64,000 nucleotides of DNA. Origin: Methylobacter sp. KS41 (GTDB lineage: Bacteria; Pseudomonadota; Gammaproteobacteria; Methylococcales; Methylomonadaceae). Position 1 is the stretch's first letter. Each line of letters starts with the position of its first letter. The stretch covers positions 1,302,001 to 1,366,000 of the forward strand of contig PHSP01000003.1 in the NCBI GenBank assembly GCA_002862125.1, given 5' to 3'. The notes under the pieces are model-generated. The model had not been told where the DNA came from and did no database searches. It was given only the letters and a program-made list of their open reading frames with translations. The translations under genes were made by a program, and so were the position numbers. This document shows, piece after piece, positions 3 to 46,322 of this stretch.

Positions 3-890
3 CCAAAAGCCGTAAAGAATCTGCGCGCTGATCTGGAAAAACAGCTTGGCTGCGCGCGAACTGAATGGGAAACGCCATTATTAAGAGCGATGTTTGCCAC
101 ATTGCTGGATGGAGCAAAATATCACCGCCGCTCGGAAAATCATGAAAGAGTCTGGCTGAGCCTTACCGGGTTTTGTTTGCGGCCCGGATTTGGTTATCCG
201 CTGGATGACTGGCGCGTCGAACAACTCTGGAAACTCTACTCCCAAGGCATACAATTTGTTAATGAAACCCAAAACTGGACGGAATGGTGGACGCTGTGGC
301 GGCGAATTGCCGGTGGTTTGACAGTATCTGCTCAAGAACAGATTTTTACCGATATCGCCAAATTTATAAATCCAGCGGCAGCTAGACAACCCGGCGTTGC
401 CAAACAAATCAAAAATCGCGGTTATGATGATATGGTGCGCCTTGCCGCCGTATTGGAACGGCTGCCCGCCGGCAAAAAAATACAACTGGGCGAGTGGCTG
501 TTGAAACGTCTGCAAAAAGCCAGCGAACCCAGCCAAACCTGGTGGGCTGTAGGACGTATCGGCGCACGGATGCCGTTTCATGGCAGCAGCCACAACGTCA
601 TTTCAGCCGGTATTGTCTCTGAATGGCTGACGCGGATTTTGTCCGAAGATTGGAAAAAAACGCCTCATGCCGGATTTGCCGCTACGCTGATTGCACGCAT
701 GAGCGGCGACAGGGCCCGGGATATTGATGAATCCGTCCGTCAGCAAATCATCGCAAAACTAAAGCTGAATAAAGCCCCCGCATCCTGGATAGACATGGTC
801 GAGCAAGTTAAAGAGCTGGATGAAAAGGAAGAAAAACAGATTTTTGGCGAAGCATTGCCGCCAGGATTAAAACTAATTAATAACGCCTGA
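3..890 (+). CDS. Hsp70-family protein, C-terminal part (5' end outside window)
   Basis: The reading frame is open from the first bases of the window, so this is the 3' part of a longer gene. The visible 295 residues are rich in Trp and Arg (LCLRPGFGYPLDDWRVEQLW-like stretch around residues 55-75) and resemble the C-terminal extension found after the ATPase domain in some large DnaK-related proteins (DUF3731 type). No Hsp70 ATPase motif is visible because that half would lie upstream. It would act as a cytoplasmic ATP-dependent chaperone of unknown clients. A short gap of 19 bases separates it from the next small membrane-protein gene, so the two may share a transcript. The assignment is from resemblance only. 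Confidence 0.5.
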   Translation, partial: PKAVKNLRADLEKQLGCARTEWETPLLRAMFATLLDGAKYHRRSENHERVWLSLTGFCLRPGFGYPLDDWRVEQLWKLYSQGIQFVNETQNWTEWWTLWRRIAGGLTVSAQEQIFTDIAKFINPAAARQPGVAKQIKNRGYDDMVRLAAVLERLPAGKKIQLGEWLLKRLQKASEPSQTWWAVGRIGARMPFHGSSHNVISAGIVSEWLTRILSEDWKKTPHAGFAATLIARMSGDRARDIDESVRQQIIAKLKLNKAPASWIDMVEQVKELDEKEEKQIFGEALPPGLKLINNA

Positions 891-909
891 AGCACACGGG
901 AGGGTAATA

Positions 910-1263
910 ATGAAGTTGATCGGTATTGTCACGATTGCAGGCCTTATCCTGCTTTATTTTATGGATGCAGCGTTCAAATTACAGATGATGAACTGGGAAA
1001 TGTTAATTCATAGCGGCCTCAGGTTTTTTACCGGCTTTATCCTCATTGGAGCAGGGGTTTTTTATGCGCATAAAATCAAATTAAAGTATGCCGTTTATGT
1101 TGTCCTGATTATGGTGTTGGCCGATGACATCATGGATTATTTTAGAAATGTAAACGCTTTCAATTTTGAACTTATGTTTCATGGAATTTATATGCTGCTA
1201 TGGGGTTCCGTAATGGGCTATGTATTCATGAGGCAATTGCAAAATAAAGCTGACAAACAATAA
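910..1263 (+). CDS. Small inner-membrane protein, unknown function
   Basis: A 117-residue protein made almost entirely of hydrophobic segments: about four predicted membrane helices (near residues 3-20, 33-52, 58-75 and 88-107) and a short charged C-terminal tail (KADKQ). The start has a good Shine-Dalgarno sequence (GGGAGGG about 6 bases upstream). It follows the Hsp70-like gene closely and may be co-transcribed. I recognise no family motif. The acidic pair near residue 76 (ADDIMDYF) lies at the membrane edge. No function is proposed. Confidence 0.65.
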   Translation: MKLIGIVTIAGLILLYFMDAAFKLQMMNWEMLIHSGLRFFTGFILIGAGVFYAHKIKLKYAVYVVLIMVLADDIMDYFRNVNAFNFELMFHGIYMLLWGSVMGYVFMRQLQNKADKQ

Positions 1264-1308
1264 CAGGCAGTCATCAGGCAAAATGTAACCCAATCATTAA
1301 GGAATGCG

Positions 1309-2679
1309 ATGAAATACGCTGTAGTAGATGCACAAATTACCCCTGAAGGCCGTCTGGATGTTCTGTCCAAGGCCGAAGTCAATAAACTGTATGATAGAAG
1401 TCAGGGAGGACTCTATCGAATATTCCGTAACTGCTCGCTAGCGGTACTTAATTGCGGCAGCGCCATGGATGACGGCAAGGAGTTGCTGGAGCGTTATCCT
1501 GATTTTGATATTCGTGTTGTTCAGGAGCAGCGGGGAATCAAACTGGAGGTTAAAGGCGCGCCTGCCCATGCCTTCGTGGACGGCAAGATGATTAAAGGGA
1601 TCAATGAGCATCTGTTTGCAGTCCTGCGTGACATTATTTACGTCAGCGACGAGATCAACGATAACCCAAAGTTTAATATGGAATCATCCGACGGCATCAG
1701 CAATGCGGTATTCCATATATTGCGCAATGCCAATATCCTCCGTCCGATGACTACTCCAAATATGGTGGTATGCTGGGGCGGGCATTCCATTAGCCGTAAG
1801 GAATATGAATACACCAAGATAGTCGGGCATGAAATGGGGCTGCGCGGTTTGGATATTTGTACCGGATGCGGGCCGGGCGCGATGAAAGGACCCATGAAGG
1901 GAGCAACGATCGGGCATTCCAAACAGCGTATTAAAAACGGCCAATATCTGGGTATCAGCGAGCCTGGCATTATTGCCGCTGAGTCACCCAATCCCATAGT
2001 CAATGATCTGGTTATTTTGCCCGATATTGAAAAACGCCTGGAAGCGTTCGTCCGCACCGGGCATGGCATCGCGGTGTTTCCCGGCGGCGCGGGCACGGCG
2101 GAAGAAATCCTTTATATACTAGGCATACTGTTGCATCCTGATAACAAAGACATGCCATTTCCGCTTATTTTTACAGGGCCTGAAAGTTCCGGGGATTACT
2201 TTTTGGAGATCGATCAGTTTATAGCCGGTACCTTAGGCAAGGATGCGCAGCAGCGGTACCGGATCATTATCGATGACCCGGTACAGGTAGCCCGAGAAAT
2301 GCTGGCGGGAATCAAGCAGGTGCGCGCTTTTCGCAAGGAAAAGGGCGATGCTTATTATTTCAACTGGTTGCTGAAAATCGATCAGGTGTTTCAGCAACCC
2401 TTTGCGCCCACTCATGAAAACATGAGCAATCTGGCTTTGCACAAGAATCAGGAAAATCACCTGCTGGCCGCTAATCTGCGCAGGGCTTTTTCCGGCATCG
2501 TGGCCGGTAATGTCAAGGACGAGGGCATCCGCGCCATAGAGCAATACGGTCATTTCGAAATTCACGGCGATGCCGGTATCATGAAGCTGATGGATTCTTT
2601 ATTGGCCTCTTTTGTCACCCAGCACCGTATGAAGCTGCCGGGAAAAAAATATACGCCCTGTTACCGGATCATTACCTGA
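1309..2679 (+). CDS. ppnN: Pyrimidine/purine nucleotide 5'-monophosphate nucleosidase (LOG family)
   Basis: 456 residues, the usual length for PpnN (YgdH). The LOG/lysine-decarboxylase-like fold is marked by the glycine-rich CTGCGPGAMKGPMKGA stretch (about residues 185-200) and by the signature PGGAGTAEE near residue 260, which holds the catalytic glutamate. The enzyme cleaves nucleoside monophosphates to free base and ribose 5-phosphate; in Escherichia coli it responds to (p)ppGpp and adjusts nucleotide pools. N- and C-terminal extensions beyond the LOG core match the long subfamily. Shine-Dalgarno AAGGAA lies 6 bases before the ATG. It sits before topB, 56 bases away, without an obvious terminator between them. 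Confidence 0.9.
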   Translation: MKYAVVDAQITPEGRLDVLSKAEVNKLYDRSQGGLYRIFRNCSLAVLNCGSAMDDGKELLERYPDFDIRVVQEQRGIKLEVKGAPAHAFVDGKMIKGINEHLFAVLRDIIYVSDEINDNPKFNMESSDGISNAVFHILRNANILRPMTTPNMVVCWGGHSISRKEYEYTKIVGHEMGLRGLDICTGCGPGAMKGPMKGATIGHSKQRIKNGQYLGISEPGIIAAESPNPIVNDLVILPDIEKRLEAFVRTGHGIAVFPGGAGTAEEILYILGILLHPDNKDMPFPLIFTGPESSGDYFLEIDQFIAGTLGKDAQQRYRIIIDDPVQVAREMLAGIKQVRAFRKEKGDAYYFNWLLKIDQVFQQPFAPTHENMSNLALHKNQENHLLAANLRRAFSGIVAGNVKDEGIRAIEQYGHFEIHGDAGIMKLMDSLLASFVTQHRMKLPGKKYTPCYRIIT

Positions 2680-2735
2680 TGCCGGATAAAAACGGTGAAA
2701 GCCGGGTATGCGTCGCATGCAACTAACGCAACATC

Positions 2736-5060
2736 ATGAAAGTCGTTCTGACCGAAAAGCCTTCAGTCGCGCGTGACATAGCCAAATGCCTAAACATAAA
2801 TAACAAACGCGATGGTTATTTTGAGGGCAATGGTTATCAAATTATCTGGGCGTTCGGTCATCTGGTCGAATTAAAAGAGCCCGATGAATACCATTCCGAA
2901 TGGAAACGCTGGTCCCTGGAGTCCCTGCCCATCATTCCGGAACAATTTGGCCTGAAAGCGCGCGGTGATGAGTCAGCGCAAAAACAATTAAATACCATCA
3001 AGCGTTTGTTCAAGACAGCGGACGAAATCATCTGCGCCACCGATGCGGGCAGGGAAGGGGAGCTGATTTTCAGATATATTTTGTCCTGGACCGGGCGCCT
3101 GCAAAAACCGTTTAAACGCCTGTGGATCAGTTCGTTGACCGATGAAGCCATACGCAAGGGTTTTGCCCAATTACAGGATGGCAAGGTCTTTGATGGACTT
3201 TACCGGGCCGCCAAATGCCGCAGCGAATCGGACTGGATAGTCGGCTTGAATGCGACCCGGCTGTATACCCTCAAGTTTGGCAGGCAAGGCGCGTTATGGA
3301 CGATAGGCCGCGTGCAAACGCCCGTGCTTGCGCTGATTGTGCAAAAAGACCTGGACATTGCCCGATTTATTCCCAAGGATTTTTGGGAGCTGCATACATG
3401 CTACAGAGAGGCCGATTTCCAATATGCCGGCGGGCGATTTGATCAAAAATCTGATGCCGAAGCAATGTTAAGCCAAATTGAAGGGCATGATTTTGAGATC
3501 ACTTCCGTTAAGGGTAAGCGTGAACTGGTCAATCCGCCGTTATTGTATGATTTGACCGATTTGCAGAAAGACATGAGCATTCGTTATGGCTTCACCGCCG
3601 ATCAAACGTTAACGTGCGCCCAGCAGTTATACGAGAAAAAACATGTCACTTATCCACGCACGGACAGCCGTTGTTTAACCAACGATATGAAGCCAGGCAT
3701 GAAACCCTTGCTGGAAAAACTGAACCAGCATTTCGCGCCGCAGATAGCAATGCTGGAGCTGGATAAGCTGCAACTGGTCAGCCGCTATTTTAATGACGCC
3801 AAAGTAAGCGACCATCATGCCATCATTCCCACGACGACATTGCCGGGGTCTTTAGCCAATGACGAAGCCAGGGTTTATGAAGCCATAGTCTTGCGATTTA
3901 TTGCGGCTTTTTATCCGCCTTGCGTCAAGCAGATCACCACTGTTTTGGGTGAAACCCGGCAGATAAAATTTAAAACTACCGGCACGATTATCGAAGCGCC
4001 CGGCTGGCAGGTATTGTATAAAAATGATTCATCCGGTCAATCCGGTAACGAAACAAAAATCCTGCCCAATTTTATACAGGGCGAAACAGGGCCGCATCAG
4101 CCCTCTATTAGTCAGGGAAAAACCACGCCGCCGAAAGCGTATAACGAAGCCAGTTTATTGAGCATGATGGAGTCAGCCGGGAAAACCTGTGATGACGAAG
4201 AGCTCAAGGAAGCATTAAAAGAAAAAGGACTCGGGACTCCCGCGACCAGGGCCTCGATTATTGAAGTGCTCATCAAACGCAATTATATCCAAAGGCAAAA
4301 GAAGTTGTTGCTCAGCACTGAATCAGGGCGGCATCTCATCTCAATAATCGCCGATGAGCGCTTGAAGTCGGCGGCAATGACCGGCGAATGGGAGGCCAAG
4401 CTCAAAAAAATAGAGCGCAACGCTTATGATCCCGATCAGTTTATGGCCGAGATTATTGAATTTACCCAAAAAATAACAGAGGTATCGGGCAAGCCGCTTT
4501 ATGACGGCGGCAAGTTAGGCGGCTGCCCCGTTTGCGGACAGTCCATTATTGAGGGAAAGAAAGGTTACGGTTGCAGCGCCTGGAAAACCGGCTGCAAATT
4601 CGTGTTATGGAAGCAGGTTTATGGCGTAAAAATCAGCCGGGAAATGGCATGCCAATTATTGCAAAATCACCAAACCCTGAACGCTTATGCCATCAAGGTA
4701 AATGATGAAGTTTTTAATGCGCAACTCACCTTAAACGCACAGGGCGAGTTAGGTTATAACAAACAACCCGCTCAACAAATACCTGAGGCAGCGCATGCCA
4801 TCGCCGGCTGCCCGCTGTGTAACGGCAAGATTATCGAAACGCCCAAAGCCTACAGTTGCAGCGAATGGCGCAACGGCTGTAAAGCGGTCATCTGGAAGAC
4901 TATCGCGCATAAAAAAATTACGCTTGCCATGGCTAGAAAATTATTAAGCAATGGTGAAACCGGCGTGCTGAAAGGTTTTAAATCGGCTAAAGGCGCCGAG
5001 TTTGAAGCCAACCTGAAGCTTGTAGACGGTAAGGTTGAAATGGACTTTGCCGGCCGCTGA
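2736..5060 (+). CDS. topB: DNA topoisomerase III (type IA)
   Basis: 774 residues. The N-terminal Toprim domain begins TEKPSVARDIA and carries TDAGREGELI with the metal-binding acidic residues near residue 100. The catalytic tyrosine lies in the motif TYPRTDS near residue 310. A later conserved block reads GLGTPATRASIIEVL. The C-terminus has two copies of a zinc-ribbon-like domain, each with a CPxC pair followed by further cysteines (about residues 603-640 and 690-730), used for single-strand DNA binding. It relaxes and decatenates DNA. The pairing with ssb immediately downstream is common both in chromosomes and in conjugative elements, so membership of an old integrated element cannot be excluded. 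Confidence 0.95.
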   Translation: MKVVLTEKPSVARDIAKCLNINNKRDGYFEGNGYQIIWAFGHLVELKEPDEYHSEWKRWSLESLPIIPEQFGLKARGDESAQKQLNTIKRLFKTADEIICATDAGREGELIFRYILSWTGRLQKPFKRLWISSLTDEAIRKGFAQLQDGKVFDGLYRAAKCRSESDWIVGLNATRLYTLKFGRQGALWTIGRVQTPVLALIVQKDLDIARFIPKDFWELHTCYREADFQYAGGRFDQKSDAEAMLSQIEGHDFEITSVKGKRELVNPPLLYDLTDLQKDMSIRYGFTADQTLTCAQQLYEKKHVTYPRTDSRCLTNDMKPGMKPLLEKLNQHFAPQIAMLELDKLQLVSRYFNDAKVSDHHAIIPTTTLPGSLANDEARVYEAIVLRFIAAFYPPCVKQITTVLGETRQIKFKTTGTIIEAPGWQVLYKNDSSGQSGNETKILPNFIQGETGPHQPSISQGKTTPPKAYNEASLLSMMESAGKTCDDEELKEALKEKGLGTPATRASIIEVLIKRNYIQRQKKLLLSTESGRHLISIIADERLKSAAMTGEWEAKLKKIERNAYDPDQFMAEIIEFTQKITEVSGKPLYDGGKLGGCPVCGQSIIEGKKGYGCSAWKTGCKFVLWKQVYGVKISREMACQLLQNHQTLNAYAIKVNDEVFNAQLTLNAQGELGYNKQPAQQIPEAAHAIAGCPLCNGKIIETPKAYSCSEWRNGCKAVIWKTIAHKKITLAMARKLLSNGETGVLKGFKSAKGAEFEANLKLVDGKVEMDFAGR

Positions 5061-5129
5061 CTTTTTCTTTGGACGGAAGTCAAAAGCAAACGATAATAGC
5101 AACATTGTTTAACCAACCATGAGATAAAA

Positions 5130-5564
5130 ATGAGCAACGTTTTCAGTTTTACCGGCGCCGTGGGCAGAGATGCCGAAGTCAGATACGCGCCGTCCGGTCT
5201 GGCAGTATTGAGTTTTACCGTAGCCAACAATATCGGTTTCGGCGACAAGCAGCAAACGCTATGGATACAAGTCACGTTATTTGGCAAGCGTGCCGAAGGT
5301 CAGCTGCAAAACTACCTGAAAAAAGGTCAGCAGGTATTTGTATCCGGTGAGTTGACGCAACGCGAATATCAGGCAAAAGACGGCACGACTAAAACCAGCC
5401 TGGATCTTAACGCCAATATCATCGATTTGATCGGCAAGAAAAACGAATCCGGCCAGCCGCAACAAAACTATCAACCTTCCGGAGTGCGAGAACAAAGACC
5501 ATCCCGGCAAGATGCCAGCCACGATAATTTTGATGCGCCCTATGATGACGATATTCCTTTCTGA
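5130..5564 (+). CDS. ssb: Single-stranded DNA-binding protein
   Basis: 144 residues with one OB fold in the first 105 residues (NVFSFTGAVGRDAEVRYAPSG start, later GKRAEGQLQNYLKKGQQVFVSGEL), a Gln/Pro-rich linker, and the acidic tail DDDIPF that recruits partner proteins in the SSB family. It coats single-stranded DNA during replication and repair. It is short compared with the about 180-residue E. coli protein, mostly because the linker is short. It lies 69 bases after topB, in the same direction, and probably shares its transcript; such topB-ssb pairs fit a role with topoisomerase III in resolving DNA. Confidence 0.92.
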   Translation: MSNVFSFTGAVGRDAEVRYAPSGLAVLSFTVANNIGFGDKQQTLWIQVTLFGKRAEGQLQNYLKKGQQVFVSGELTQREYQAKDGTTKTSLDLNANIIDLIGKKNESGQPQQNYQPSGVREQRPSRQDASHDNFDAPYDDDIPF

Positions 5565-9736: not shown

Positions 9737-12700
9737 ATGCCTAACTTCATTTCCGAAGATCAGATCGAGCAGGCGCTGGTGCAGAAGCTCCAGCATCTGC
9801 ACGGTTTCGACGCGCTCGACTGTTACACGGAAAATGCGGAGGATTTAAACGACGGCTCGAACCGCGCCAACAAGCGCGATGTGATTCTGGCTGAGCGGGT
9901 GCGGGAAGCCGCGATCCGCCTGAATCCGGCCATCCCGGAAGCGGCCATCGAGAGCGCGCTGGAAAAGTTGCTCGACCGGCGGCAGGCGATGACGCTGATC
10001 GCCGCAAACCGGGAAATCTATGGCCTGCTGCGCGACGGCATCCCGGTACAATTCGACGACGCTAAGGGCGCGCGGCAGCAGGAGCTGGTGCGGCTGCTGG
10101 ATTTCAACGCGGCGGACAATAACCGCTATCTGGCCGTAACCCAGCTGTGGATCAAGGGCGAGCGCGGCTTCCGCCGCCCGGATGTGTTGCTCTACGTCAA
10201 CGGTATTCCGCTGGTGTTCATCGAGCTGAAAAACTCGAACGTGAAGTTGCGCAATGCCTACGACAACAACCTGACGGCTTACAAGGCGGAGATTCCGCAG
10301 CTTTTCCTGACCAATGCCTTTTGCGTGCTGTCCAACGCCATCGAGACCAAGGTAGGCAGCATCACGGCGGAGTGGGAGCATTTCTTCAACTGGCTGCGCG
10401 CGGATGACGAGAAGCAGAAGATAGACCGTGCCGCGATCCGTGAGCAAGGTATCAGCCTGGAAGGCGTGATCGAAGGCTTGCTGCCAAGGCAGAGGCTGCT
10501 GGACTATGTGGAAAATTTCATTCTCTATTACAAGGACAGTTCGAAGATCATCGCGCAGAACCACCAGTTCATCGGCGTGAACCGGGCTTATATAGCCTTC
10601 CTCCGGCGCGAGGAGCTGGCGGGCAAGCTGGGCGTGTTCTGGCACACGCAGGGCTCGGGCAAGAGCTTCTCGATGATTTTTTATGCGCGCAAAATCTTCC
10701 GCAAACAGACCGGCAATTTCACTTTTGTGGTGGTGGCCGACCGCGACGATCTGGATGGGCAGATTTACCGCAACTTCCTGAACACCCGCACGGTCAGCGA
10801 GGCGGAAGCCGCGCAGCCCAAGAACAGCGAGGAGATGCGTCGTTTCCTCGGGCAGAACAAGCGGCTGGTGTTCACCCTGATCCAGAAATTCCGCTGGGAC
10901 AAGGGCCGCGAGTATCCCGAGCTATCCGGGCGCAACGACATCATCGTGATCGTGGATGAGGCGCATCGCACGCAATACAAGTCGCTGGCGGAAAACATGC
11001 GCAAGGGTTTGCCCAAGGCAAACTATCTGGCGTTCACCGGCACGCCGCTGTTGGGGCGCGAGCGCAAGACCAATGCCTGGTTCGGCGGTTATGTTTCGGA
11101 ATACAACTTCCAGCAGTCGATGGACGACGGCGCGACGGCGCCGCTGTTTTACGAGAAGCGCGTGCCGGAGGTGCTGATCCAGAACGAGGGCTTGAGCGAG
11201 GAGTTTTACCGGATTCTGGAGGACGAGAATCTGGACGAGGCGCAGCAGGCCAAGCTGGAGAAGCGCTTCGCCAAGGAGGTCGAAGTCATCAAGCGCGACG
11301 ACAGGCTGGAGAAAATCGCGCGGGACATCGTCTATCACTTCCCGCGGCGCGGCTATCTGGGCAAGGGGCTGGTGGTGTCGGTGGACAAATTCACCGCCGT
11401 GAAGATGTACGACAAGGTGCAGCGCTTGTGGAAGGAAGAGCTTAAAGAGTTGCGGGGACGCATCAGTAAATCGGCCAACGACGTTGAGAAGAGGCGGCTG
11501 AAGCAGATCGTTGAGTACATGCGCAAGGTGGAAATGGCGGTGGTGATCAGCGAAGACGCTGACGAGGAAAAAAAGTTTGCGGATCAAAAGCTGGAAATCA
11601 AGCCGCACCGCGAGCGCATGAACAGGTTGGACAAGCAAGGCCACGACATCGAATTCAACTTCAAGGATGAGAATGATCCGCTGCAACTGGTGTTTGTGTG
11701 CGCGATGTGGCTGACCGGCTTTGACGCGCCCACGCTTTCGACGCTGTATCTCGACAAGCCGATGCAGGGGCATACGCTGATGCAGACCATCGCCCGCGCC
11801 AACCGCGTCACGTCGTGGAAGATCAACGGAGTGGAGAAGCGCAACGGCGAGATCGTGGATTATTACAACGTGTTCCGCAACATGAAGCTGGCGCTGAAGG
11901 ATTACGCGCAAGGCGGCGATGAGATTGATCCGCCGGTTAAGGAAAAGGCGGAGCTGTTCCGCCTGCTGGACGATGCGATTGAGCAGGGTTTGGCGTTTTG
12001 CCACGAGAAAGAGGTTGCGTTGCGCGAGGTGCTGGGCGGCGACGATGTGTTTGAAAAACTTGGCCGCTTTAATGCCTTTGCCAATGCCTTGCTGGCAAAT
12101 GACGAATGGCGCAAGGGTTTCAACGTGTACGAGAACACCATCACGTCATTGTATGAAGCGTGCAAGCCGGAAGCGCTGGGCGCCGGCAAGGGGCGCGAAG
12201 TCGCAGTGTTCCAGTATTTGCGCGGGGTGATAGACAGCCTCGTCGAGCAGACAGATATCGACAAGATCACTTTGAAGATTGCCGAGCTGCTGGACGAGAG
12301 CGTGGTGGTGAACGACTCGGATGCGTTTAAGGTGCGTCAATACAGCGCGGAATACCAGGTCATCCAGAAGGGTAAGACCTGGGACCTCAGCAAGATTAAC
12401 TTTGATAAGCTGCGCGAGGAGTTCAGGCAGGCGGCCTATAAGAACATTGAAATCGCCGATCTGCGCGCTTTCCTGCAACGCAAGCTGGAGCTGATGCTGC
12501 AACAGAATGCGACGCGCACTGACTTTGCGCAGCGCTTGCAAGAGATTATCGACACTTACAATTCAGGCGGCTCGGCCACTGAAAATTCTTTCGAGGACTT
12601 GGTGAAATTCGCCGAGGAGTTGCGTGCGGAGGAAGAACGGCATATCCGCGAAGGGCTGACGGAAGACGAGTTGGAGCTGTTCGATCTGTTGAAGAAAGAC

Positions 12701-36995: not shown

Positions 36996-38597
36996 ATGCC
37001 CAATTCACACAAATATGACGTCCTTATTATTGGCAGTGGCGGTGCAGGTCTAAGTTTAGCACTTAGACTGGCTGATCACCCAACCAGCGTTGCGGTATTG
37101 TCGAAATTCGCACTAACCTCCAGCAGCACCTATTATGCTCAGGGCGGCATCTCTGCAGTATTTGATGCCGAAGATTCCCTTGAGTCTCATATTGAAGATA
37201 CGCTGGATGCCGGTGCAGGACTCTGTAACCCTGAAATTGTCAGACTTACCGTTACTCACGGGAAAAGCTCTATCGACTGGCTCCGCGAACAAGGCGTTGT
37301 TTTTACTGAGGAGCAAAACCAGGCTGGCGAAATGCATCTGCATTTAAACCGCGAAGGAGGGCATTCTCACCGGCGTGTTGTGCATTCCGCGGATGCAACC
37401 GGCAAGGCTGTATCGCTATCGCTTATCGAGCGTGCGCAGGAACATCCCAACATCGAATTATTTGAACATCATAGTGTTGTCGAATTAATCACCGCCCCTG
37501 CATCGGATCAAACCGGGAAACAAGTATTGGGCGCCTATGTCCTGGATACTAAAAAAAGCCGGGTTAAAACGATGTCCGCTCGCGTCGTTGTTCTGGCGAC
37601 AGGCGGCGCAAACATGGCTTACATTTACAGCACCAATCCGCACAGTTCGACTGGCGACGGTATTGCGCTGGCATGGCGCGCCGGCTGCCGCGTCAGTAAC
37701 ATGGAGTTTATGCAGTTCCATCCGACCTGCCTTTATCATCCGCAAGCCCGCTCTTTTCTAATCAGTGAAGCATTAAGAGGCGAAGGCGGCAGGCTGATTT
37801 TGCCGGACGGCTCCGCTTTTATGCAAGATTTTGACCCAAGAGGTGAACTGGCGCCCCGGGATATTGTTGCCAGAGCCATCGATCACGAAATGAAAAAGCG
37901 CGGTATAGACTGCGTTTATCTTGATATCAGCCATAAATCAGAGGACTTCATACGCGAGCATTTTCCTACGATTTACCAGCAATGTCTCGAATTTGGCATT
38001 GATATCACCAAGCAACCGATACCTGTTGTTCCGGCAGCGCATTACACCTGCGGCGGCGTTTTAACGGACAGCTATGCCCGCACCGACATAAAAAACCTTT
38101 ATGCCGTTGGCGAAGTGGCTTGCACCGGCCTGCACGGCGCTAACCGCATGGCCAGCAACTCGTTGCTCGAATGCCTGGTTTTTGCCGAACGGGCCAGTGA
38201 AGATATTTTATTAAAACTTCCCAACATCCCACCTGTTCCAAAACTCCCCGACTGGGATGAATCGAAAGTCAGCGACTCCGATGAAGAAGTAGTTGTTTCA
38301 CACAACTGGAACGAACTGCGCAATTTCATGTGGGACTACGTTGGCATCGTCAGAACCGATAAGCGGCTCAGCCGGGCAATGAATCGAGTAGAACTGCTTA
38401 AAAAAGAAATAGCCGAATATTACGGCAATTTTCGTGTCACCAGTGATTTACTGGAATTGCGCAATCTGGTCATCGTCGCCGAATTAATAATACGTTGCGC
38501 GCAACAACGCAAGGAAAGCCGCGGCCTGCATTACACACTGGATTATCCGGAAACGGATAATAGCAACCCCCCGCAAAACACCGTTCTTAAGCCTTGA
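36996..38597 (+). CDS. nadB: L-aspartate oxidase
   Basis: 533 residues. The FAD-binding motif [18 protein letters not shown] opens the protein, [16 protein letters not shown] and [19 protein letters not shown] follow, and the conserved [17 protein letters not shown] stretch (about residue 385) identifies NadB. It oxidises aspartate to iminoaspartate for NAD synthesis. Divergent from rpoE with 189 bases between them. Confidence 0.96.
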
Positions 38598-39362: not shown

Positions 39363-41801
39363 TCATAATTTTGAATCAATCATTGTGTACCCTAAGCACT
39401 TATAACCAGTTTTTCGTTTCTCGCTCATCTTGTCTAAAATCGGTACGTTGCTATCTACATAGTCGTAAATCCTGACTTCGATTTTTGCATGATGTAGGCG
39501 GTGCAGTCTTCCAACATACTGCGCCAATGTGCCTTTCCAGGAAATCGGCATGACCAGAAATAGTGTGTCCAGTCTGGCATCATCAAATCCTTCACCCAGA
39601 TAGCGTCCTGTAGCAATAATAATCCGCTCTTCATCATCGGGAATACTTTGCAGAGCGTCTTGCAATTGCTTACGTTGCCGAACACTCATACCACCTTGCA
39701 TTACGAAAACATTTTTTGCAAATGCCTTGATCTGCTCGGCCAATAGTAACACATGCTCTTTCCTCTCAGTTAACACAATCGGCGAACGTCCTTCAGCTAA
39801 AGCTTTTTTGATGTCGTCAAGAATAAACTGATTACGCTGTAGATCAACAACCAGTGCTTGATAAATCTCATGAATCGATATATGACCAATGGCGCTTTGA
39901 GGCATTATGAACGTCGTTTTGCGTTGTGTTACATAATGATCAAAAGGTCTTGCTAAAGCCTGCTGTTTAGCGTTGACCTGATAGCGAACGGGTCCGCACT
40001 GCATAAATATAATAGGATGGTGTCCATCTTTTCGAGTTAAGGTTGCCGATAGTCCCAGGACATATTTTGCTTTGCAAGCCTTAGCAACAGATTCAAAGCT
40101 GACTGCGGATAAATGATGGCATTCATCAAAAATGACTAGTCCATAATTAGCTACCAAATCGTTTACAGTATGATTTTTGGTTAAGCTTTGCATAATGGCG
40201 ACATCAATAACACCATTAGGCTTATTTCTGCCACCACCGATTTTGCCCACCTGTTTTTTGGGTACATTCAAAAACATTTCAATACGTTCCAGCCATTGAT
40301 CTAAAAGCTGACGACGATGAACGATAATCAACGTATTGACCTGTCGCTTTGCAAGAACATGGAGCGCAACCACTGTTTTACCGAAAGCCGTCGTGGCAGA
40401 GAGCGTCCCAATATCGTGTTCGAGTAGTTTATTTGCTGCCTGAGTTTGCTCGTCTGTTAACTGCCCCAGAAACTGCAAGTCTGGGATTTTGTTTCCTGAA
40501 AACCGTTCATCCCGAGTCACGGGTTTGATTTTTAGTTCTCCAAGAAGATTTATTAACTCATCCTGACACCCTCTTGGTAAGGCAATATGCTGTGAGTAAT
40601 ACTCGGCACAAGAAATGATTCTAGGCTTATCAAAAGTCGACAAGCGCATGGCTTGATTTTTATAAAACTCCGGATTCTGAAATGCGGCAAGGCGAATAAT
40701 CCTGCTTTGCAGCGCTGTGGGTAAATTGCTTTTATCGATGAAAAGCTGATTGCCCAAAGTAATGGTTACGCGTTTAGGAAGGGATTCATAAAGGCTGATT
40801 TCTTTGATTTTGCGTGAAGGTGGCATTTTCCAGGGTTCACCGTCCTCTTCATTAATGGGAAGTTTCACCCCCAAAATACTATTTTGCTGTTCAGCCATCT
40901 CAATTAACTGATTTAGTTCATTAAGAGTTATCCGCTTGATAGTCGATAAATAAGCCCATTGATCGGCATAACCGACAAAGTTGTCATCTACAAATACACT
41001 GTTGCCCTGTTCACGAGGCTTTTTCTGCAAGGGTAAGGCAATGAGATTACCAAAGCCGCCTTTCGGCAAAGTATCCTGATTGGGAAATAATCGATCATAA
41101 GATTCAAAACCTAATTCTGGATGTTTATCCATGGCTTGAGTTAACAGGTAAGAGCCTAGTTTCCTGGCGTCTATGGCAAAAACTGCATCGCTAAAAAATA
41201 ACCAAACATGTGCGCCTTTGCCAGACCTTGATTTTTCAATGCTATACGGAATATTGTTTTCTTTACAGGCAGAGGCAAACGCACTGACATCCAGCTGCCA
41301 AGTGGCTTTGTCAAAATCAGCTGCCAGAAACCAGCAGCGCTCATCCTGCATCAAGGGGTAAACCCCGATAACAAAATCAGCTTTAGGATTAAGCGGGTTG
41401 TCTGTACCTGCCAAGTGGTTTGCAATTACTTGGTCGCTACGTGGAAGAAATGAACGGAACTGGCAGTCACCACATTTGATGCGCGGCTTTTCACAGACAT
41501 TGGGTTTCCATTCATTCGAACAAGCCGGTGAATAACCAGATTTACCCGTATTACTGTTTTCCCAACGTTTTGGATACACATCATCGCGTCCTTTGAACAG
41601 ATCACGAAACAGGTTGACCTTGTCTTTACTGGATGATTGCTGGGTAACTGTTGCCCTAACTATGAGTTGAGTTAGGCTTTGTTGTTGCTGGTGCTGCTGA
41701 TTTTTTAATTTACTTAACGCATGAAACAGTGATTCACGTTCAGTATCTATCTCTTGAATTTTTTGCTCCAATGCCGCGATTCGTTGCTCAAAATTGCTCA
41801 T
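39363..41801 (-). CDS. TOTE-type conflict-system protein: archaeo-eukaryotic primase fused to superfamily 2 helicase
   Basis: 812 residues. A coiled-coil start (about 1-45) is followed by a Cys-rich segment (CSNEWKPNVCEKPRIKCGDC) and an archaeo-eukaryotic primase domain: WFLAADFDKATW (catalytic acidic residues) and IEKSRSGKGAHVWLFF (the SGxGxH motif) near residues 155-215. The C-terminal half is a superfamily 2 helicase: Walker A ATTAFGKTVVA (about 473), DECHH (about 557), LGLSATLTRKDG and a final QYVGRLHRLHH. This architecture is that of the AEP-helicase protein of TOTE conflict systems. It begins 8 bases after a BsuBI/PstI-type endonuclease gene, so it is the third gene of a defence operon. 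The exact activity is unknown. Confidence 0.8.
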   Translation of the reverse strand: MSNFEQRIAALEQKIQEIDTERESLFHALSKLKNQQHQQQQSLTQLIVRATVTQQSSSKDKVNLFRDLFKGRDDVYPKRWENSNTGKSGYSPACSNEWKPNVCEKPRIKCGDCQFRSFLPRSDQVIANHLAGTDNPLNPKADFVIGVYPLMQDERCWFLAADFDKATWQLDVSAFASACKENNIPYSIEKSRSGKGAHVWLFFSDAVFAIDARKLGSYLLTQAMDKHPELGFESYDRLFPNQDTLPKGGFGNLIALPLQKKPREQGNSVFVDDNFVGYADQWAYLSTIKRITLNELNQLIEMAEQQNSILGVKLPINEEDGEPWKMPPSRKIKEISLYESLPKRVTITLGNQLFIDKSNLPTALQSRIIRLAAFQNPEFYKNQAMRLSTFDKPRIISCAEYYSQHIALPRGCQDELINLLGELKIKPVTRDERFSGNKIPDLQFLGQLTDEQTQAANKLLEHDIGTLSATTAFGKTVVALHVLAKRQVNTLIIVHRRQLLDQWLERIEMFLNVPKKQVGKIGGGRNKPNGVIDVAIMQSLTKNHTVNDLVANYGLVIFDECHHLSAVSFESVAKACKAKYVLGLSATLTRKDGHHPIIFMQCGPVRYQVNAKQQALARPFDHYVTQRKTTFIMPQSAIGHISIHEIYQALVVDLQRNQFILDDIKKALAEGRSPIVLTERKEHVLLLAEQIKAFAKNVFVMQGGMSVRQRKQLQDALQSIPDDEERIIIATGRYLGEGFDDARLDTLFLVMPISWKGTLAQYVGRLHRLHHAKIEVRIYDYVDSNVPILDKMSEKRKTGYKCLGYTMIDSKL

Positions 41802-41809
41802 AAAATTTG

Positions 41810-42766
41810 TTAAGCAGTATTGTACGGCCCAAGAAAACGCACGCCGTTGAAATGAATAAGGTGCGATGGTGCATCAGCCACCCAAACTTCAGTTTCCCAT
41901 GCGATTTCGCCTAGATACCGACTCATAATGGAGCGGTTCGGGAATGCGGTCACATAGACTAATCCGGCTGTTGATCCAGCGAACAGCTTGGTCAGTTCTG
42001 CGTGTCGCTTGCCATCGACAGGGCCATGACTGGTGACAGACTCGATTAGCAACAGCCAATTTTTCTCGACGAAGTGGAGCACCACGTCAGGCATCTTGCC
42101 GTGTGAATCCACATCGACACCGAGCTCGTCCAACAAGACCGCATCGAAGTACCCCCACTTGTCGCCAGTGTCACCGGCATAGACCAGTACGCTACCGGGC
42201 GCGAAGCGCGGACCGAATTCTTCCACGATGGCACGAATCAACTCGCTGTGCTCGCCTGGACTGAGGGTGATTTTCTTGCCCGGTGCAATCTGCATGGGGA
42301 TACGGTTTTGCTCTCGATCCATCGCGTACTTGTTCGCCAACGTCTGACTCCTGGACAGATAAGTCACCAAATTGTCATGCCATTCCGGGGTACCGAAACT
42401 ACGCAGCAGGGTCAACACAGTTGGAGCAACCTGATAAACAGTCTTTGGGCTGTTTATCGGGCGATCCGGTTTGTCCGGGTTATAAAGGGCAATCCCTGCA
42501 TCAACAAACTGATGCATTGTCTGGCGTCGGAACGTCTCTCGTGAGTTTGGAGCGTATGCCTTATCGTAGTAATCCCCGGACCAGTCCATTATCGGTGTGA
42601 TGCCAACAAGTGGATTTTCAGCCTGCACCCATGTCTTGTTAGGGGTAAGATTCAGCAGCGCCAACAGACATAACGCAGATCGGTCATTGTGCTGCGCACG
42701 CGGCAGACCTAAAGAAATGAGGATCTGATGCGCCTCGTCGAGACGATTGTTATTATTCTTTGTCAT
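41810..42766 (-). CDS. BsuBI/PstI-family restriction endonuclease
   Basis: 318 residues. The N-terminal part is a helical winged-helix-like domain (TPIMDWSGDYYDKAYAPNSR, typical of the family), and the C-terminal nuclease domain contains MPDVVLHFVEKNWLLLIESV then SHGPVDGKRHAEL, giving the D...ExV...K/H catalytic set of BsuBI/PstI enzymes. By family it should cut at CTGCAG. Its ATG overlaps the methyltransferase stop (ATGA), and the TOTE gene starts 8 bases after its stop. Confidence 0.9.
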   Translation of the reverse strand: MTKNNNNRLDEAHQILISLGLPRAQHNDRSALCLLALLNLTPNKTWVQAENPLVGITPIMDWSGDYYDKAYAPNSRETFRRQTMHQFVDAGIALYNPDKPDRPINSPKTVYQVAPTVLTLLRSFGTPEWHDNLVTYLSRSQTLANKYAMDREQNRIPMQIAPGKKITLSPGEHSELIRAIVEEFGPRFAPGSVLVYAGDTGDKWGYFDAVLLDELGVDVDSHGKMPDVVLHFVEKNWLLLIESVTSHGPVDGKRHAELTKLFAGSTAGLVYVTAFPNRSIMSRYLGEIAWETEVWVADAPSHLIHFNGVRFLGPYNTA

Positions 42767-44238
42767 GCGATCAGGTTATCAAGTTGTTCGTCAATCATGC
42801 TCTGCGTAGGCTCGCCGCAGCGCTTTGCCCATTCCCCAAGCGCTATCAGCGCCTTCCGGCTCGGATATTTCATCATCTTAAGGTCGGTTGCATTAACTTG
42901 GGTGTGACCACTCGAACGGCGGAAGTTTTCATCCACGGCCATCGTGTTGAGGTATATAGCCAAGCCAAGCGCTAAAGCTTCTGGTAAACCATGCTTGTTC
43001 TCGTGATACACGTTCAGGTGATTCTCTAAGCCCAGCATTTCAGAATCACCAAAGATGTCTGGCTGCACAACGCTGGCAACGATTCGTCGTTTTTCTTCCT
43101 TCGATGAAAAACGACGAACCACACAATAGAAACCATTTGGATAAAGCCACTTTTCTGTCTCAACGTTACGCTGAATAGCATTTGGCTTTTTGATGCCAGG
43201 TTTCGGCCATTCGATGTATTGCCCGGCAAAGTGAGCGGGGTACAGGAGGGGAACGGTTCCCGGTTCGGGCATTTCACGGAGATGCTTTTTGAGTCGAAAA
43301 TCGACAACCGCCCCCGTCGATACCTTTATACCAACATCCTCCAGCGAACAGCGAATCGCAGATGAAAGCTCAATGGTGTTAAGCTCTGATGAAGTCGGCA
43401 CATGAATGAAACGCTCGGAATCATCGGGGAACACGATTCGGTTAAATGGATGCGTATGAGTTACAAGGTCAGCGAAGCTATCATCGGTCGATGTTGTCAC
43501 TATCACGTCACCTTGCTGACCACCACACTCAAGCAATAGAATAATGTTCTCCTGCAGCACATCATCATCCTTGAAGGCCTTGCTGCGTGAGTCAAATAGG
43601 TGCATGTGTCGAATTGCTGCCCGCTCAAGTATAAAGACGCGAAAAGGCCTGTAATACGGTCCATTGCAGAAGCTACGTGGAATGATTGCCACGATTTGCC
43701 CACCCGGCTCCATCATTGCCAGAGCCAAGGCAACAAAAGCGGAATAGAGATTTACTGTTTCAATCCCTGCCTGTCGAAGCAATAAGCGGCAGCGGGAGCT
43801 GCTGCTAATTTTTTTATAGGGCGGATTCAGGATTGCGTGAGTGAATCCTTTTCCAAAATCAAATTGAATTCTATTGACGGCCTGTTCAATAAAGTCGTCA
43901 CCCAGTATCTCGTAAACAATGGGCAGTCTGTTCTGGTAACTGGAAAGCGATTCATTTAATTCTTTGTGGATAAGGCTATCTAACTCGAATGCAGTTACTT
44001 CAATTGTTTTGAATCTCAACTCGCCATCAATACACCGCTCAAGAAAAGCACTTGAAAGTGAGCCAATACCTGCGCCAGCGTCAAGCAAACGACACTCAAG
44101 GTTTCCTGTCGATATAAACAACCCAGCCATGAACTGGGCTGTTCTTGCAGGCGTAAGAAATTGTCCGAATTGCGACTTTCGTTTCGCTTCAGTGTTCTTC
44201 GATACCCTCAATCTTGTTTGTTCAACTGCTGCTAACAA
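42763..44238 (-). CDS. BsuBI/PstI-type adenine-N6 DNA methyltransferase
   Basis: 491 residues. The start is a TTG with a strong ribosome binding site (GAGGAG, 9 bases upstream). The protein opens with KSQFGQFLTPARTAQFMAGL, then the SAM motif LLDAGAGIGSLSSAF (about residue 57) and the catalytic NPPY (about residue 138); the C-terminal half recognises DNA. It should protect CTGCAG by family. First gene of the methyltransferase-endonuclease-TOTE operon, divergent from ettA. Confidence 0.88.
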   Translation of the reverse strand: MLAAVEQTRLRVSKNTEAKRKSQFGQFLTPARTAQFMAGLFISTGNLECRLLDAGAGIGSLSSAFLERCIDGELRFKTIEVTAFELDSLIHKELNESLSSYQNRLPIVYEILGDDFIEQAVNRIQFDFGKGFTHAILNPPYKKISSSSRCRLLLRQAGIETVNLYSAFVALALAMMEPGGQIVAIIPRSFCNGPYYRPFRVFILERAAIRHMHLFDSRSKAFKDDDVLQENIILLLECGGQQGDVIVTTSTDDSFADLVTHTHPFNRIVFPDDSERFIHVPTSSELNTIELSSAIRCSLEDVGIKVSTGAVVDFRLKKHLREMPEPGTVPLLYPAHFAGQYIEWPKPGIKKPNAIQRNVETEKWLYPNGFYCVVRRFSSKEEKRRIVASVVQPDIFGDSEMLGLENHLNVYHENKHGLPEALALGLAIYLNTMAVDENFRRSSGHTQVNATDLKMMKYPSRKALIALGEWAKRCGEPTQSMIDEQLDNLIA

Positions 44239-44654
44239 TGATGCGTCTCCTCTTTGCTGCCTTACACGTTATTATTTTGTTCTGGATAACTTATATCCTA
44301 ACTTCAATTAAGTTTAACAAAAATTATCCCAAAACTGCTTTTTCTTAACCGAATAACATACAAAAACGCATAAAAAAACTATTTCAGGATAATCAATTGA
44401 TTGCACATCTGCCAAAGATATTGAACCCGTTCGGTCCGTTGTTGAAAATTACTATCGAATCATCCCCCTCCATTCAAGCGCAAAGTCCTGCTTAAGCCTT
44501 GGCTTACCCCCCCGCTAATTCATTCATTCTTAACTGAGTCGTGGGTGTACAAAGTTCACCCTGCTACTCAACGCTTAAAAATTGTTAAATAACATGGAAT
44601 AATAACCAGCTTCGCGTTAACCTCTACCAACCTTAATCTGATTTACAAAACACT
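44239..44654. other. Divergent intergenic region, defence operon / ettA
   Basis: 416 AT-rich bases that must hold the promoters of the leftward defence operon and of rightward ettA. No ORF, hairpin or known operator stood out on either strand. Confidence 0.4.
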
Positions 44655-46322
44655 ATGGCGCAATACATCTATTCAATGAACCGGGTCGGCAAAATTGTCC
44701 CGCCCAAAAAATACATACTCAAGGACATTTCGCTGTCGTTTTTTCCCGGCGCAAAAATTGGCGTGCTGGGGTTAAACGGCTCGGGTAAATCAACTTTGCT
44801 GAAAATTATGGCTGGTATCGACAAGGAAATCGAAGGCGAAGCGATTCCGCAGAAAGGCATTAATATCGGTTATCTCCCGCAGGAACCGCAACTGGACCCC
44901 GCAAAAACAGTACGCGGCAATGTTGAAGAAGCGGTCGTTAAAATCAAGTCGGCATTGGAACAGCTTGACGCAGTTTATGCCGCTTACGCCGATCCCGATG
45001 CGGATTTTGATAAATTAGCCGCCGATCAGGCGCGTCTGGAAGACATTATCAATGCCTGTGACGGCCATAATCTGGAGCGGAAACTTGAAGTTGCGGCTGA
45101 TGCGTTGCGCTTGCCCGATTGGGATGCCGATGTCACCAAATTATCAGGGGGCGAAAAACGCCGCGTGGCGTTATGCCGGTTATTGCTATCCAATCCCGAT
45201 ATGCTGCTGCTGGACGAGCCCACCAACCATCTGGACGCGGAATCGGTCGCGTGGCTGGAACGGTTTCTGCACGATTATCCCGGAACTGTGGTTGCGGTAA
45301 CGCATGACCGTTACTTCCTGGATAATGTGGCCGGCTGGATTCTGGAACTGGACAGAGGCGCAGGCATTCCATGGGAAGGTAATTACTCAAGCTGGCTGGA
45401 GCAAAAAAGCAATCGTCTGTTGCAGGAAGAAAAGCAGGAATCTTCCCGCCAAAAAGCCATGAAAGAAGAGCTGGAATGGGTACGCTCCAATCCCAAAGGC
45501 CGTCATGCCAAAAGCAAATCACGGCTTGCACGCTTTGACGAGCTGTCATCATCCGACGTACAAAAACGCAATGAAACCCATGAGATTTATATTCCGCCCG
45601 GCCCTCGCTTGGGCGACGTGGTGATTGAAGCCGATAACATCAGCAAGGCTTTCGGCGACAAGTTATTAGTCAACGGCTTGAGTTTTAAACTGCCGCCCGG
45701 CGGCATCATCGGCATCATCGGTCCCAATGGCGCGGGTAAAACCACATTGTTCCGCATGATGGCGGGTCTTGAGCAGCCGGATTCGGGGACTTTGACACTG
45801 GGGCAAACCGTTCAGCTCGCCTATGTTGACCAATTGCGTGATGATCTTGATCCGAAAAAAACCGTCTTTGATGAAATTTCCGACGGACTGGACTTGATTA
45901 CCGTAGGCAAATATGAAACGCCGTCACGGGCTTATGTCGGACGCTTTAACTTTAAAGGCGCAGACCAGGGAAAACGCATCGGCGATCTTTCCGGCGGTGA
46001 ACGTAACCGTGTGCATCTGGCCAAACTGCTGAAAACCGGCGGCAATGTCTTGTTGCTCGACGAACCGACCAACGATCTGGATGTGGAAACCCTGCGTGCT
46101 TTGGAAGAAGCGTTACTGGCTTTCCCCGGCTGCGCCGTGGTTATCTCGCATGACCGCTGGTTTCTGGACAGAATCGCCACTCACATGCTGGCCTTCGAAG
46201 GCGACAGTCAGGTTGTGTGGTTTGAAGGCAACTACGAAGATTATGAAGCCGATCGCCATCGCCGCCTTGGCAGTGATGCGGATAATCCACATAGGCTCAA
46301 ATATAAAAAACTGGCTGGTTAA
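44655..46322 (+). CDS. ettA: Energy-dependent translational throttle protein EttA (ABC-F)
   Basis: 555 residues, the standard length. Two ABC domains: Walker [10 protein letters not shown] with signature LSGGEKRRV and Walker [12 protein letters not shown], then GPNGAGKTT with LSGGERNRV and [11 protein letters not shown]. The linker includes [12 protein letters not shown], the P-site tRNA interaction motif, between the domains. EttA binds the ribosome E site and gates early elongation according to ATP/ADP ratio. It stands alone and ends with a hairpin at 46330. Confidence 0.96.

Follow-up and report, generated by a model that had tools for sequence, protein, structure and literature searches.

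A type II restriction-modification pair with a probably captured primase-helicase gene at its tail in Methylobacter sp. KS41

The 64,000-nucleotide stretch of Methylobacter sp. KS41 analysed here (contig PHSP01000003.1 of assembly GCA_002862125.1, positions 1,302,001 to 1,366,000; hereafter the window) carries on its minus strand a row of three genes, encoding, in this order, a DNA methyltransferase (M), a BsuBI/PstI-family endonuclease (R), and a protein in which a primase domain is fused to an XPB-like superfamily 2 (SF2) helicase. We favour, with a probability of roughly 70%, the reading that these genes represent an ordinary type II restriction-modification (R-M) pair of the SdaI/PstI-like kind, directly behind whose R gene an autonomous, mobile primase-helicase gene has been captured. 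It is more likely that M-R and the helicase travel together than that they form a single machine. The pair itself is unremarkable; the unusual features of the locus are how it acquired its tail and which genes the helicase family accompanies. An initial annotation of this DNA had proposed a composite defence system; this proposal was not supported, as R and the helicase are nearly always found apart in the other genomes examined.

In a survey of 301 genomes of the same order, in which helicases were counted at E up to 1e-40, R was found in 25 genomes, the helicase in 45, and both in 5 (G000, G138, G260, G241, and G115; one-sided Fisher p = 0.31 for association), while adjacent R and helicase genes were found in two genomes, namely the window's own (G000) and G138. 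R was open in 13 of the 15 order genomes, the window's left out, that carry it at E <1e-100. Within the genus (35 genomes), the window's helicase has strong relatives in three further genomes (G002, G031, and G034); in addition, G021 has a partial match where a contig ends, and G010 has a remnant. No M-R pair was found beside these five in the flanks examined. The R family PF06616 was found in three of these 35 genomes (the window's, G009, and G012; R of the latter two is 36% identical), and there was no helicase match near R of G009 and G012. A phylum sample of 398 genomes included 13 with R and 18 with the helicase, the window's genome being the only one with both, and in the others (12 with R and 17 with the helicase) the partner gene was absent from the flanks examined. 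Of the best 80 of 363 helicase relatives on genome contigs, 70 of which have at least 1 kb of upstream sequence, a single locus (L034) has R or M in the sequence examined; it carries both, and its place matches G138. On plasmids, R-like genes were found in 61 records and helicase-like genes in 106, with no accession common to both, as judged by eye, among the matches listed (60 of 61 vs 77 of 106), and two small plasmids carry M-R with the same 4-bp overlap as in the window and without the helicase in the stretch shown. With the exception of G138, the stretches examined contained no helicase behind related R genes, and the related helicases had neither R nor M next to them. The survey that the initial annotation had suggested thus yielded no recurrent, independent joining of M, R, and helicase, and we rejected co-occurrence as evidence for a composite on the order, phylum, contig, and plasmid data alike. 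The opposite outcome that it had allowed for, a third gene that is a stray neighbour in this genome only, comes close to what was found, the exception being one other trio genome, G138, with a tail apparently acquired from a window-like donor. Among the literature matches listed (one search being narrow), no paper dealt with the trio or with this helicase as part of an R-M operon, and no experimental paper on this primase-helicase family was found in the literature searched. As a separate observation, the Komagataeibacter plasmid pKNA10 (L205, 5018-7123) has an AAA family ATPase as third gene, 57 bp behind R of an M-R pair.

The junction between the two modules was located by blastn of the region in one coordinate frame, in which R ends at 2891 and the helicase ATG lies at 2900. 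The G138 trio, which matches 444-5342, is the sole locus that spans both modules; loci with M-R alone (L119, L120, and L125) match 437/446 to 2878/2899, and closer full-length relatives of the helicase, standing alone, match 2883-2900 to 5318-5350. The edges of the M-R module accordingly lie ~20 bp before M and at about the R stop, and those of the helicase module lie between 17 bp before the ATG and the ATG itself, and at about its stop. In the helicase-free genome G236, R is followed by TAAATTTTT, like the 8-bp spacer of the window; the spacer hence looks like the M-R side, and the helicase module starts at its ATG or no more than a few bases away. In the comparison with the other helicase relatives, the DNA before their ATG bears no relation to the end of R, save for a short AAATTT in L030, L033, and L035, which may represent microhomology at the joining. 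To judge from these alignment edges, two modules have been butted together at the R stop and the helicase ATG.

Comparisons of the loci that carry M-R indicate how the tail was gained. Three genomes of one genus (G138, G088, and G236) have both flanks of the M-R locus in common, and the helicase is present in G138 alone, where it sits between R and the downstream flank, at a place where 284 bp of G088 match nothing. The M-R pair of the window adjoins a gene that we take to encode an ABC-F ATPase, and G176, from another genus, has M-R at the same site with no helicase in the 16 kb examined; in two genomes of the window's own genus (G014 and G012), the ABC-F gene stands without M-R in the stretches examined. 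Therefore, at two different places, M-R is found both in a genome that has the helicase there and in one that lacks it. Along the 319 bp at the 3' end of R, identity between the window and G138 is 87-88.5%, and that of G138 to its own congeners is ~80-82%, down from 88-92%. A breakpoint in R was located with a maximum chi-square of 54, a value reached by 0 of 5000 permutations; in a tree of R nt 1-638, G138 grouped with G088, G236, and G176 (support 89), while in a tree of nt 639-954 a clade of the latter three (support 99) excluded G138, which fell beside the window (support 75). In view of the shift in similarity, the chi-square, and the R trees, we therefore read G138 as a recombinant, and these comparisons show that it took the 3' end of R and the helicase from a window-like donor. 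The helicases of the window and G138 are mutual closest relatives (86.4% identity at the DNA level). G138 has an open M of 491 aa, an R with an interruption near residues 28-42, and a helicase with a frame change near residue 702; assembly error in this metagenome-assembled genome (MAG) is a possible source of the interruptions. The insertion in R of G138 (L209, ~8164, plus strand) and a stretch of G176 between ABC-F and M (L210, ~11086-11130) have in common a short, similar sequence that may be a dispersed repeat; it was not found as such in the window.

The genes themselves are real, and their order, their 4-bp overlap between M and R (42763-42766), and the 8-bp gap before the helicase are exactly, to the base, as first annotated (Table 1). 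M matches Pfam family PF07669 (Eco57I; E 4.7e-10), and its TTG start is preceded by GGAG also in G138 and G088; TTG is found in G176 as well. R matches PF06616 (E 1.8e-60) and PF17728 (E 1.3e-52), both far above cut-off, and the PADLOC models for type II methyltransferases and endonucleases are matched at E 8e-206 and 3.9e-158, respectively. The primase-helicase matches PF22548 (AEP-TOTE; E 1.7e-99) and PF04851 (ResIII; E 1.9e-23). Its AEP half also matches the PADLOC PrimPol model PDLC01465 (E 2e-93) and the solved chains 7nqd and 7nqf (E 3e-9 and 5e-9), and its helicase half resembles solved XPBII/RAD25 chains (best E 1.2e-21). Residues that we take to serve as a Cys cluster and as AEP and helicase motifs (C94/C103/C110/C113, D162/D164, H198, K475/T476, DECHH 559-563, and R765/R768) are all present in the window's protein and are conserved in no fewer than 97% of the 82 proteins aligned, the window's included. 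The architecture is full-length and the same as that of stand-alone relatives, and this is the one AEP-TOTE gene of the window's genome. Close relatives that carry a name are from Methylobacter and Methylovulum, which suggests a methanotroph of this group as host. Co-transcription of M, R, and helicase is plausible; scans for promoters (15 sites vs 10.7 in shuffles) and terminator-like sites (12 vs 5.3) were put to no use. No terminal repeats were seen round the cassette, just weak pairs as by chance.

Table 1. Features of the three-gene cassette and its surroundings, in positions of the window
Feature	Position	Strand	Remarks
M, adenine-type DNA methyltransferase, Eco57I family	42763..44238	minus	491 aa, TTG start; ORF (open reading frame), Pfam, PADLOC
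R, BsuBI/PstI-family type II endonuclease	41810..42766	minus	318 aa; ORF, Pfam, PADLOC, SdaI match
Primase-helicase, AEP primase domain with Cys cluster fused to XPB-like SF2 helicase	39363..41801	minus	812 aa
8-bp spacer from R stop to helicase ATG	41802..41809	minus	(T/C)AAATTTT, as 3' of R in G236 (L119)
Apparent recombination breakpoint inside R relative to G138	42124..42129	minus	3' block, 319 bp of R plus helicase, common to G138
~110 bp upstream of M	44239..44348	minus	aligns with helicase-free G176 beside the ABC-F gene
Presumed ABC-F ATPase gene	44655..46322	plus	divergent neighbour marking the site; host gene, outside the cassette
Presumed NadB-like gene	36996..38597	plus	convergent neighbour on the other side; host gene, outside the cassette

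The capture reading builds on the intact frames, the modularity, the breakpoint, the rarity of the trio in our surveys, and the variety of unrelated genes next to which helicase relatives are found. Under it, M would methylate and R would cut unmodified sites, with M-R working alone, while the helicase would be read from the M-R transcript, its translation probably coupled to the R stop codon, and would act by itself as a nucleic-acid-handling conflict or element-borne gene. M-R and the helicase were probably joined once, the helicase ATG being set onto the 3' flank of R; we infer a single joining because the junction is identical. The tail, consisting of the 3' end of R and the helicase, then moved to an M-R pair at a different chromosomal place, in another genus, via recombination through R, as the sequence comparison shows. 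A number of points weigh against this reading. In the window, the three genes lie tightly together with open frames, and their joint recurs in a second genome; contig ends in MAGs hide some neighbours; M of G176 falls into two frames, and this copy may be broken; and support for the grouping of window and G138 in the helicase tree is low (30). Pairwise ratios of nonsynonymous to synonymous substitution of 0.06-0.13 in nine comparisons indicate purifying selection on M, R, and helicase, with the limit that the window's helicase was compared with relatives away from R, so that the joint with R lies outside this test. Finally, the conflict-gene neighbours of helicase relatives described below would also fit a functional partnership.

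With regard to the target site, R matches SdaI, its nearest and only relative of solved structure, over nearly the whole length (residues 9-316; E 1.8e-82) and keeps the MPD..L.E.V stretch; R would probably cut at sites with a CTGCAG core. The window's genome contains 691 CTGCAG sites in 4.74 Mb (146 per Mb), which is no depletion within the genus, six genomes of which without R have 112-247 per Mb (counts of 493-858). CTGCAG is much scarcer in two genomes of the same genus with a distant R: G009 has 57 sites in 3.6 Mb (16 per Mb), and G012 has 109 in 4.1 Mb (27 per Mb). In another genus, densities were 45 and 48 per Mb in the R-bearing G088 and G236 vs 45 in the R-free G288. The sequence CCTGCAGG, which we take to be the SdaI site, is found 65 times in the 4.74 Mb of the window's genome, which ranks second in density among the 35 genomes of the genus, and is likewise not depleted. 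These counts neither prove nor exclude a target, because the M-R pair could be recent. The description of the system as CTGCAG-type in the initial annotation is unproved, the only solved relative of R being SdaI and both sequences being undepleted in the genome. The matches to the distant R genes (G009:C18:2041-2979 and G012:C65:14971-15912; L136 and L137) both contain an in-frame TAA.

Neighbours of helicase relatives were surveyed at 109 loci, where 52 of 70 codirectional upstream ORFs and 27 of 49 downstream ORFs were scanned; the 18 upstream and 22 downstream ORFs left out by hand had gaps of more than ~100 bp or were duplicates, fragments, or very short, and a few were overlooked. Among the upstream Pfam matches listed (25 of 55 families) were ParE (9), Fic (4), AbiEii (3), McrC, PIN, HTH_3, and GNAT (2 each), and RHH, the BsuBI/PstI R, JetD-type DUF3322, and DUF3368 (1 each); downstream, where 7 families were matched, these included DUF559 (2), RelE (1), and PIN_10 (1). 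PADLOC models (E up to 1e-5) matched SoFic, AbiEii, and JetD upstream, with R included, and no family downstream. Conflict genes, GNAT left out, accounted for 26 of 52 upstream ORFs among the matches listed vs 4 of 27 downstream ORFs (p = 0.002), a value to be read with the relatedness of members (most ParE cases appear to belong to one Pseudomonas/Stutzerimonas group), the crude ORF calls, and the choice by hand in mind. In 16 annotated plasmid stretches, the upstream bias was not confirmed, conflict genes being found on either side: a recombinase, a HigB-linked regulator, TniQ, and an antitoxin-like gene close upstream, and a Tn3 transposase, RelE/ParE, HipA, and AbiEii downstream. Three stretches have insertion sequence elements, hypothetical genes, or nothing of conflict kind beside the helicase, and in one a PD-(D/E)XK nuclease is encoded two genes before it. 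That the helicase associates with conflict and mobile genes is plain; that it belongs to the upstream side is not proved.

Several individual neighbourhoods deserve description. On the E. albertii plasmid NZ_CP070285.2 (L245, 44735-50672), a helicase relative lies 28 bp after a recombinase and 21 bp before a Tn3 family transposase, as if it were transposon cargo. Agrobacterium NZ_CP116695.1 (L259, 14008-20052) has a transposase, TniB, TniQ, and then a helicase relative on the same strand, and Sinorhizobium CP140946.1 (L248, 26485-30122) has TniQ and then a helicase relative, also on the same strand, the distance from TniQ being 131-143 bp in these two. On plasmids of Pukyongiella (L244) and Dinoroseobacter (L250), the helicase ends ~40 bp from three opposite-strand tyrosine recombinase genes in a row. 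Relatives stand directly behind the Wadjet JetD gene in L103 (8509-12226) and directly behind McrC in L110 (1970-8235) and L102 (8505-12292). The relative in G002 (L022, 11946-17006) has a type III-like restriction cluster ~1 kb away, made up of an 896-aa ResIII protein and a 558-aa N6/N4 methylase.

These neighbourhoods bear on the alternatives to capture. If the primase-helicase were a shared helper that processes ends or repairs the stray self-cuts of a DNA-damaging partner, its partners would be interchangeable and the partnership nevertheless real. The relatives directly behind McrC and JetD, the gene behind R described here, and the likeness of the helicase half to XPB/RAD25 chains agree with such a role; however, relatives also stand behind ParE, AbiEii, Fic, PIN, TacA-GNAT, and transposition genes, most of them non-DNA-cutting, and some lack any codirectional gene shortly before them; we consider the helper role unlikely. 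Another alternative would be a three-part restriction system driven by nucleoside triphosphates (NTPs), with the helicase as motor subunit of R, like the N/H-protein in CglI and NgoAVII, for which PMC4267653 states that cleavage requires NTP hydrolysis by the helicase. The gene make-up is the same (M, R, and an SF2 helicase), and the 3' end of R travelled with the helicase; this reading is improbable in our judgement.

That the third gene has no present function and is a decaying passenger is very improbable. Internal stops or splits affect the helicase in at least 7 of the 45 helicase-bearing order genomes (G209, G155, G222, G187, G113, G138, and G178), and G138 has interruptions in both R and the helicase but an open M; by contrast, the helicase of the window has its full length and every motif, and the comparisons point to purifying selection. 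Least credible of all is a genuine TOTE conflict system, as the initial annotation had named the third gene. PMC12458937 describes TOTE as TPR, OB, TBP, and Effector. Of these, the AEP effector domain is present, with PF22548 providing the family label and no more, but TBP was not found in the window's own genome or in any of the 36 genomes scanned out of 45 helicase-bearing genomes, four archaeal control genomes being positive, and the genes that adjoin the helicase are R and the convergent NadB-like gene, so that neither TPR nor OB adjoins it, no genome-wide search for these two having been made. TOTE membership was rejected on the absence of TBP.

A bolder reading is that the helicase serves as a general plug-in for conflict operons of unrelated kinds (type II R-M, McrBC, Wadjet, AbiE, Fic, and toxin-antitoxin) as well as for transposition operons. 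It would dock onto these, often as last gene, would move from one to another in part via recombination through the host gene, and would supply a common DNA-handling step. We offer this as a tentative idea at long odds, which we lowered because an upstream bias was not borne out on the annotated plasmids. Capture by an ordinary R-M pair would itself be a warning against reading tight operons as single machines. Two loci, each known in one form that has the third gene and one that lacks it, together with a breakpoint inside R, illustrate how an operon tail may be gained. The survey also draws attention to a widespread family of primase-helicases found in the company of conflict and transposition genes.

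Among known systems, SdaI and other BsuBI/PstI type II R-M systems resemble the locus in R (PF06616 and PF17728 together with the SdaI match), in the adjacent methyltransferase gene, which is of the Eco57I family, and in the 4-bp M/R overlap, as on the two small plasmids; the window differs by the third gene behind R and by a genome undepleted of CTGCAG. CglI and NgoAVII, as described in PMC4267653, are alike in having three genes, for M, R, and a DEAD-family helicase. The AEP-TOTE (PF22548) helicases share the AEP-TOTE domain, the SF2 helicase, and the full-length architecture, whereas the window's protein differs by its R-M operon setting, with no TBP in the genome and no adjoining TPR or OB gene. 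Lastly, CRISPR-associated PrimPol is similar in its AEP half (PDLC01465; 7nqd/7nqf), whereas the AEP domain of the window is fused to an XPB-like helicase.

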